From contig NZ_WMEX01000002.1 of NCBI RefSeq assembly GCF_009856365.1, positions 62,001 to 126,000 on the forward strand: DNA of 64,000 bases. Direction: 5' to 3'. This document shows, piece after piece, positions 40,853-41,956 of the stretch. The notes beneath the pieces were generated by a model. It did not search any database. It saw only the letters and a program-made list of their open reading frames with translations, and was not told the origin of the DNA. The first letter of the stretch is position 1; every line of letters starts with the position of its first letter. This DNA is from Vreelandella halophila (GTDB lineage Bacteria > Pseudomonadota > Gammaproteobacteria > Pseudomonadales > Oleiphilaceae). The translations under genes were made by a program, and so were the position numbers.

Positions 40853-41956
40853 TCATTGTTCCGTGAATCGGCCATGTTCCACGTGGAACATCGCAGGTTC
40901 ATGTTTGTGCATCAGGTGACCGAGAGCTCCTTCATTCGGAGCAGTGATCCCGGTAAGAAAAACCTGTGTGTTCAGGGCCAGCAGTTCACCGGCCAGAAGA
41001 GCCTGATTTTCGCCATCAAGCTCCGCATGGATATCATCCAGGAGGCAGATACCCTCGCAGCCCACGGATTGCAGCACCCGCATCTGAGCCAGCTTCATAA
41101 GCACCACCAGGGATCGCTGCTGGCCGCGGGACAATACCTCCCCGGCGGGCTGTTTGCCGACCCGGACGCGGATATCCGCCCGATTCGGGCCATAGAGACT
41201 GAAACCGGCACGGGCCTCCGCCTCAAGATTGCTTTCCAGAACCGAAGCCAGGCCGTTACTCGAATCCCAACCTGGACTGAAAGCCAGGGAAACGCTGTTG
41301 AGCCATTCCGCCTGTGACCTGGCGCGGATCGATTCGAACTCATTGTAAAACCGGTCGAAACCCGCCTGACGCCCCTGATTCAATCGCTCACCGAGCTCCG
41401 CCACTCTGGCGTTCCAGGGGCCGATGGACGAGTGATCAATTATACCATGCCGGAGCAGGTGATTGCGTTGTTTAAGGGCTCTCTGTGCTTCCTGCCAGAC
41501 GCCACTGAACCAATGTTCCACGTGGAACACCAACCAATCCAGAAAACGCCGCCGATTACCCGGCCCTCCGGCAACCAGCTCAAAAGTCCCGGGTTCAATC
41601 ACTGAGACAGGCAAAAGTCTCGCGAGCTCAGAGACCGAGCGCACTACCTCCCCGTTACGCTGCAGACGGACGCCGTTTGCATCCCCGGGCTCCCGCTCCA
41701 GTCCAATCCGGAGCGATCCCCTTACCGGATCCGTCACCACACCGAAAAGGGTCAGTGACCGGGATCCCTCCTGCACAACACGACGGTGATTGGATGTGCG
41801 AAAAGAGCGGGCAGTGGAAAGATAGTAGATCGCCTCGAGTAGGCTGGTTTTACCACTCCCGTTAGCGCCATAAATCAGATTGAGGTCGGAAGAGAACTGG
41901 AGTTTCTGCTGCTCAATATTGCGGAAGTGATGAAGATGGAGCTCACGCAGCGCCAT
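40853..41956 (-). CDS. recF: DNA replication and repair protein RecF
   Basis: 367-residue SMC-like ATPase loading RecA at gaps. It has Walker [14 protein letters not shown], the signature [14 protein letters not shown] and Walker [13 protein letters not shown]. Two 16-bp parS palindromes are embedded in the gene and are translated as FHVEH, once inside the protein and once near its C-terminus (MFHVEH). It lies 3 bp after the tandem thioredoxin-fold gene rather than directly after dnaN. Confidence 0.97.
40875..40890. promoter_or_regulatory. parS centromere site 1 (3' end of recF)
   Basis: TGTTCCACGTGGAACA, a perfect 16-bp palindrome matching the parS core GTTCCACGTGGAAC known from Pseudomonas. 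It would nucleate ParB near the origin. It is coding, in the last few codons of recF. Confidence 0.9.
41514..41529. promoter_or_regulatory. parS centromere site 2 (inside recF)
   Basis: A second identical perfect copy of TGTTCCACGTGGAACA, 639 bp from site 1, also within recF coding sequence. Together they form the origin-proximal ParB loading zone, about 5-6 kb from the dnaA-rpmH gap. Confidence 0.9.

Follow-up and report, generated by a model that had tools for sequence, protein, structure and literature searches.

The window analyzed here, a 64 kb stretch of DNA, carries gyrB, recF, dnaN and dnaA in that order on the minus strand, followed by the presumed oriC, past which rpmH, rnpA, yidC and mnmE are found on the plus strand (Table 1). 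Beyond mnmE the order continues with a TonB receptor, an acyl-CoA dehydrogenase, a small protein, mnmG, rsmG, parA, parB and the atp genes. Family searches were run on recF, parA, parB, gyrB, the TonB receptor and the dehydrogenase, and the remaining genes in the window bear the names that we presume from recognition of their sequences, including the ORFs that we take to be dnaN and dnaA. A longer mechanical ORF for gyrB, reaching 40902, was taken as a spurious upstream extension. The DnaA-box pattern matched three times in the window against 1.27 expected, which lends weak support to the position of oriC. The encoded RecF, of 367 residues, shares 94% identity with a record of Halovibrio salipaludis and 92% with one of Vreelandella utahensis, which places the genome among the gammaproteobacteria, the class referred to below.

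Table 1. Features of the origin region, with positions counted from the first letter of the window
Feature	Coordinates	Strand	Evidence
gyrB, downstream of recF	38419..40827	-	NF011501, 1299.9 bits on 38422-40827
recF, recombination mediator ATPase, carrying both sites	40853..41956	-	TIGR00611, 331.2 bits, cut-off 172, E 7.2e-99
C-terminal parS site (putative)	40875..40890	-	TGTTCCACGTGGAACA, exact match; FHVEH = RecF residues 357-361
Internal parS site (putative)	41514..41529	-	TGTTCCACGTGGAACA, exact match; FHVEH = RecF residues 144-148
dnaN (presumed)	44139..45242	-	ORF; sits between recF and dnaA
dnaA (presumed)	45287..46807	-	ORF
Presumed oriC region, dnaA-rpmH interval	46808..47433		Gene order; two DnaA-box-like 9-mers (47011, 47207)
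parA, partition ATPase	59107..59901	+	ParA-family matches; gene order after mnmG and rsmG
parB, parS-binding protein	59948..60832	+	TIGR00180, 188.5 bits, cut-off 58

The parB gene is the only match to TIGR00180 in the genome, and by alignment the DNA-binding region of its product carries R173, N178, L179 and G201 (Caulobacter numbering), while for parA no match exceeded a curated cut-off among the 25 of 30 ParA-family matches listed. The first-pass annotation had placed both genes some 18 kb from the sites in recF and across the origin, and the gene coordinates agree, putting some 18 kb between parA and the two sites, an interval that includes dnaA, rpmH and the presumed oriC. The TonB-dependent receptor, the acyl-CoA dehydrogenase and a small lipoprotein-like gene occupy 51522-56274, between mnmE and mnmG, and set parAB farther from the origin.

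A pattern scan recovered the two exact palindromes that had been noticed inside recF, both copies of the 16-bp sequence TGTTCCACGTGGAACA lying in frame and being read on the recF strand in the same codon phase, xTG TTC CAC GTG GAA CAx, which encodes FHVEH after V or M. With up to three mismatches allowed, the window holds no match besides these two (shuffle expectation 0.28), and none of 100 shuffles of the window reached two matches. In the whole assembly (3.34 Mb in 19 contigs, 96.9% complete) the two palindromes are again the only matches at up to two mismatches, a threshold at which the reversed pattern, used as a control, gave four. A chromosomal parS set is expected to consist of the 16-bp palindrome TGTTYCACGTGRAACA or sequences close to it, in few copies close to oriC, in a genome with cognate chromosomal ParA and ParB, and under a sequence constraint independent of coding. 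Here, two exact copies are present in the assembly, at about 5–6 kb from the dnaA start, the position of oriC itself being presumed from gene order; ParB scores over the TIGR00180 cut-off, whereas the ParA side draws on family matches under the cut-off and on gene order; and a constraint beyond coding is indicated by the codon tests and by the sites in other frames described below. The host gene is recognized as recF by a family model over its curated cut-off (TIGR00611). These features support the earlier reading of the palindromes as parS sites.

In the family of the window organism, we compared recF genes from 50 of the 96 genomes matched, namely the 30 best and 20 picked toward the more divergent, and both cores were intact in all 50. 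Conserved residues, with M and W excluded, occupied 57 columns, of which seven showed a single codon in every row bearing the residue. These seven comprise the H, V and E of each site together with the V that precedes the internal one, whereas the dominant codon at the other conserved positions had a median frequency of 0.5. When the window recF was compared with three relatives (L003, L004 and L165), 26%, 40% and 54% of the identical-residue codons outside the sites differed, against 0, 1 and 1 of the 10 site codons. Both of these changes were TTC to TTT, the form that drift takes at the H, V, E and F codons and one tolerated by the parS consensus, and the sites remained intact even where the recF of a relative had diverged at as many as two thirds of the shared four-fold codon positions. 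The invariance of codons at the sites, set against their variability at other conserved residues, argues that the constraint at both sites is on the DNA. The comparison of relatives suggested in the first-pass annotation thus yielded kept codons, and the synonymous drift that would break the palindromes was not found among the 50 genes of the family. Likewise, the proposal that the same DNA serves as protein code and centromere gains support, both sites being in frame and their codons constrained.

The same preference extends across the class. Among 106 rows with FHV(E/K) at the internal site, CAC was used in 105 (44.7 expected), GTG in 105 (35.1) and GAA or AAA in all 106 (55.9), and among 102 such rows at the C-terminal site the counts were 100 (43.6), 101 (34.9) and 102 (55.0), where the expectations derive from the usage of each gene (33–54%) and the kinship shared by class rows makes binomial figures overstate independence. 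Additionally, the two arms of the palindrome appear to covary, since T at base 5 coincided with A at base 12 in 30 of 202 sites against 18.6 expected, a value that none of 20,000 shuffles within GC3 quintiles and site attained. On a FastTree tree, 4 and 8 supported independent pairs were available, of which on average 2.7 and 2.8 were concordant and 0.0 and 0.1 discordant, and the sign test was not significant; the covariation of TTC/TTT with GAA/AAA is therefore regarded as suggestive.

The class was sampled with 151 genomes, one per family except within the window's own order, and 134 of them contained the core GTTYCACGTGRAAC. The recF set comprised 125 of the 151 genomes with recF over the family cut-off, the window included; of the 26 excluded, 24 had no match over the cut-off and two had recF split in two. 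Rows representing duplicate or overlapping loci (L001, L002, L140, L141, L142, L146, L155, L163, L164 and L166) and one broken recF (L131) were dropped before counting. Both cores were found in 89 of the 125 genes, the internal core alone in 15 (including L014, where a contig end cuts off the C-terminal site and makes it unreadable), the C-terminal core alone in 9 and neither in 12, so that the internal core is kept in 104 genes and the C-terminal core in 98. The 125 genomes hold 249 parS cores; 202 of them stand at the two positions, and the recF open frames contain 207, of which 203 are in the same phase. Exactly two cores are present in 91 genomes. In the order sample, 150 of 194 genomes have one parS or more when one mismatch is allowed, and in all 30 two-place genomes among the matches listed the spacing was a multiple of three. 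No parS core was detected in the 16 recF rows from outside the class. We infer that most of the class inherited the recF arrangement from a common ancestor and did not acquire it repeatedly. One genome of the sample (G309), whose recF falls under the family cut-off, has twelve parS cores where two are usual.

The recF slot is not obligatory for parS, since 12 of 125 genes lack a canonical core there and five of the genomes concerned have canonical cores elsewhere (L035, L051, L057, L076 and L118). The other seven comprise five with near-palindromes at the recF positions (L036, L087, L112, L117 and L129), one with a shifted site (L114) and one without any canonical core in the genome (L079). 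Where the usual site or frame has been lost, parS may still be present in another frame of recF: in L114 the internal peptide is gone and a parS lies 23 bases downstream in another frame, in L103 a parS occupies the third frame, and at the recF 3' end of L130 the site is retained in another frame, with CSTWN in place of FHVE(H/Q). In L128 an in-frame parS occurs elsewhere in recF. Besides, three genomes that lost the internal site (G298, G323 and G270) carry two cores 31–60 bp apart at and just past the recF 3' end, which would fit a continuing preference for a pair.

Loss of ParB offers a further contrast. In an order sample of 40 genomes around G374, with presence of ParB defined as a match over the cut-off, 29 genomes had both ParB and parS and nine had neither, the exceptions being one with ParB and no parS (G503) and one with parS and no ParB (G500, 92% complete). 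Seven of the nine genomes with neither, and E. coli K-12, supplied eight ParB-less recF genes; K-12 was included on the basis that Enterobacteriaceae and Pasteurellaceae are described as being without par genes (PMC7022226). In these eight genes the site codons resemble ordinary codon use, and GTG encodes the C-terminal V in three of the eight against 154 of the 158 other class rows with V, although the loss of ParB counts as one independent contrast on the tree. These rows keep a likeness of the peptide only (e.g., MFRVEH and MFTVEK), and F-x-V is also seen outside the class. The idea that they retain a fossil centromere was rejected: over the 16 site positions of the eight rows, with codon use taken from each gene, the likeness to parS was no better than the peptide predicts (lowest P 0.054).

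Part of the peptide is constrained by the protein itself. In a 31-row RecF alignment, which includes three rows from outside the class and two ParB-less rows, F144 and V359 never vary, and H145 and F357 are each kept in over 90%. At the C-terminal columns, 14 of the 16 outside-class rows have the V and 9 have the F. An AlphaFold2 model of RecF (mean pLDDT 92.3, from 30 alignment rows) has helix 132-146 ending in the internal FHVEH, which continues into the following turn, and places the C-terminal FHVEH, with high confidence, in strand 355-360 of the terminal hairpin. The earlier suggestion, that RecF may accept an additional C-terminal peptide solely because of parS, is not supported, since RecF proteins lacking parS end alike; that of E. 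coli K-12, for example, has MFTVEKG there, which is homologous to the peptide of the C-terminal site. Given the strand in the model and these homologous ends, the C-terminal FHVEH is best described, on the predicted structure, as an ordinary part of the RecF fold.

With high confidence, we regard both palindromes as functional parS sites serving the chromosomal ParABS system, and hence as the centromere of this chromosome. From what is reported for Pseudomonas and from general knowledge of ParABS systems, the product of parB would bind the two sites in recF, load there as a CTP-dependent clamp and spread across the origin region, and ParA would move the resulting ParB-parS complex so that new origins part. 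The FHVEH codons would accordingly be fixed by the DNA sequence, and not by the peptide alone. The palindromes might instead be a by-product of a peptide that RecF needs, the DNA pattern having no function, and the conserved residues listed above, with the internal F column kept in 14 of 16 outside-class rows, do indicate that part of the peptide is constrained by the protein. That account is nevertheless extremely improbable, for the codons are far more uniform than gene usage predicts and, in the family, are the only ones fixed; HVE is absent from the internal site in all 16 outside-class and all eight ParB-less rows; and some genomes carry parS in other frames.

It is also conceivable that the sites are parS by descent and that the centromere role has since passed to other ParB sites. 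In P. aeruginosa, ParB also binds secondary sites unrelated to known parS, and one parS of four suffices for segregation (PMC5521831, PMC5098823), and therefore both recF sites need not be essential in the window organism. A displaced centromere is very unlikely, however, because the assembly contains no other match at up to two mismatches, the sites stay intact in relatives despite diverged four-fold recF positions, and the secondary sites of P. aeruginosa are described as insufficient for segregation. A role as operators through which another DNA-binding protein controls recF-gyrB could be imagined from the position of the C-terminal site, about 48 bp before the gyrB start, and from the lower gyrB mRNA under excess ParB in P. 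aeruginosa (PMC5521831), which makes an effect on the operon possible. Yet the sequence is that given for parS2 and parS3 of P. aeruginosa, the cores track the presence of ParB in the order sample around G374, and the internal site is distant from any start, all of which leave the operator reading with a negligible probability. Overall, it is very likely that the sites in recF are real parS, dual-coded, widely conserved and under constraint at the level of DNA.

The five lineages with near-palindromes raise a broader possibility. In L112 (G289), TGTTTCATATGAAACA, with the core CATATG, stands at both recF positions and no other relaxed-pattern match exists in the genome; in L036 (G216), TGTTCCACATGGAACA is found at both positions, and in L129 (G223) the positions carry TGTTCTACGTAGAACA and TGTTCCACGTAGAACA, each pair again being the only relaxed-pattern matches in its genome. 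CATGTG/CACATG forms occur in recF at one position in L117 (G199) and at both in L087 (G196), so that the variant cores across the five lineages are CATATG, CACATG, TACGTA and CATGTG. At residue 179 of the ParB recognition helix (Caulobacter numbering), S or T is found in four of the five variant lineages (ParB of L192-L196) but in 2 of the 53 others, and both of these two accompany a recF without canonical sites; the ParBs compared may include some plasmid copies. The fifth lineage (G216) has F179, as do 3 of the 53 others, and the contact residues R173, N178 and G201 are the same in the variant-lineage ParBs. The variant-site lineages are small, divergent genomes, and kinship may lie behind the association; moreover, Caulobacter ParB has T179 (PMC7383237) and yet prefers the standard site. 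The association, drawn from alignments, is a lead and not a result. We consider it a tentative reading, with chances slightly below even, that the two positions in recF form an ancient slot for the centromere in this class and that the variant palindromes are working parS for ParBs of altered specificity, as residue 179 would suggest. In each symmetric variant form, a silent codon change in one half goes with an amino-acid change in the other half and therefore, if this reading is true, the centromere would drive change in the RecF protein, and the recF slot would predict variant centromeres missed by a canonical-motif scan.

A centromere written into the codons of a conserved gene provides a fixed landmark for following parS across the class. 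This landmark shows parS absent where ParB is absent, parS at new places and variants that motif scans miss. Besides, it looks like a case in which a function of the DNA, and not protein function alone, sets amino acids of a repair protein.

The literature consulted contains the recF sites of P. aeruginosa; conservation in recF across the class, codon constraint on parS and variant-core recF sites were not found in it, although the survey of Livny (2007) may report part of this. In that literature, parS1 and parS2 of P. aeruginosa lie within recF (PMC5521831, PMC3909081), ParB is bound in vivo at parS1-4 by ChIP-seq with enrichment over more than 20 kb (PMC5098823), and nine of ten parS were taken as intragenic and mutated without coding change (PMC4368675), while parS3 is called intergenic in another report (PMC5521831). 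P. aeruginosa resembles the window in that recF, on one side of oriC, contains two parS and parAB lies on the other side, so the placement of parAB across the origin from the recF sites is not special, and its parS1 and parS2 belong to the same sequence class as the sites described here (TGTTCCACGTGGAACM). It differs in having two further ParB-bound sites near oriC (parS3 and parS4) and six putative ones, where our assembly has the recF pair only, and in that its parS1 ends in ACC (FHVEP when in frame), whereas both window sites end in ACA. Xanthomonas citri is likewise described as having a parS (TGTTCCACGTGGAACG) close to oriC and at the end of a replication gene, but the gene is dnaN, at whose 3' end the site is placed, and not recF (PMC3937727). 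The Noc/NBS system combines a ParB-fold protein and a palindrome related to ParB/parS (PMC7383237), but the Noc model gives the window ParB 223.5 bits, short of the cut-off of 315, and this ParB has R173 and G201 where Noc has Q and R; NBS differs at two positions, at which the window sites carry the parS bases. The arrangement is thus already known in Pseudomonas, and the window genome alone is an ordinary, two-parS version of it, to which the present study adds the comparative evidence.
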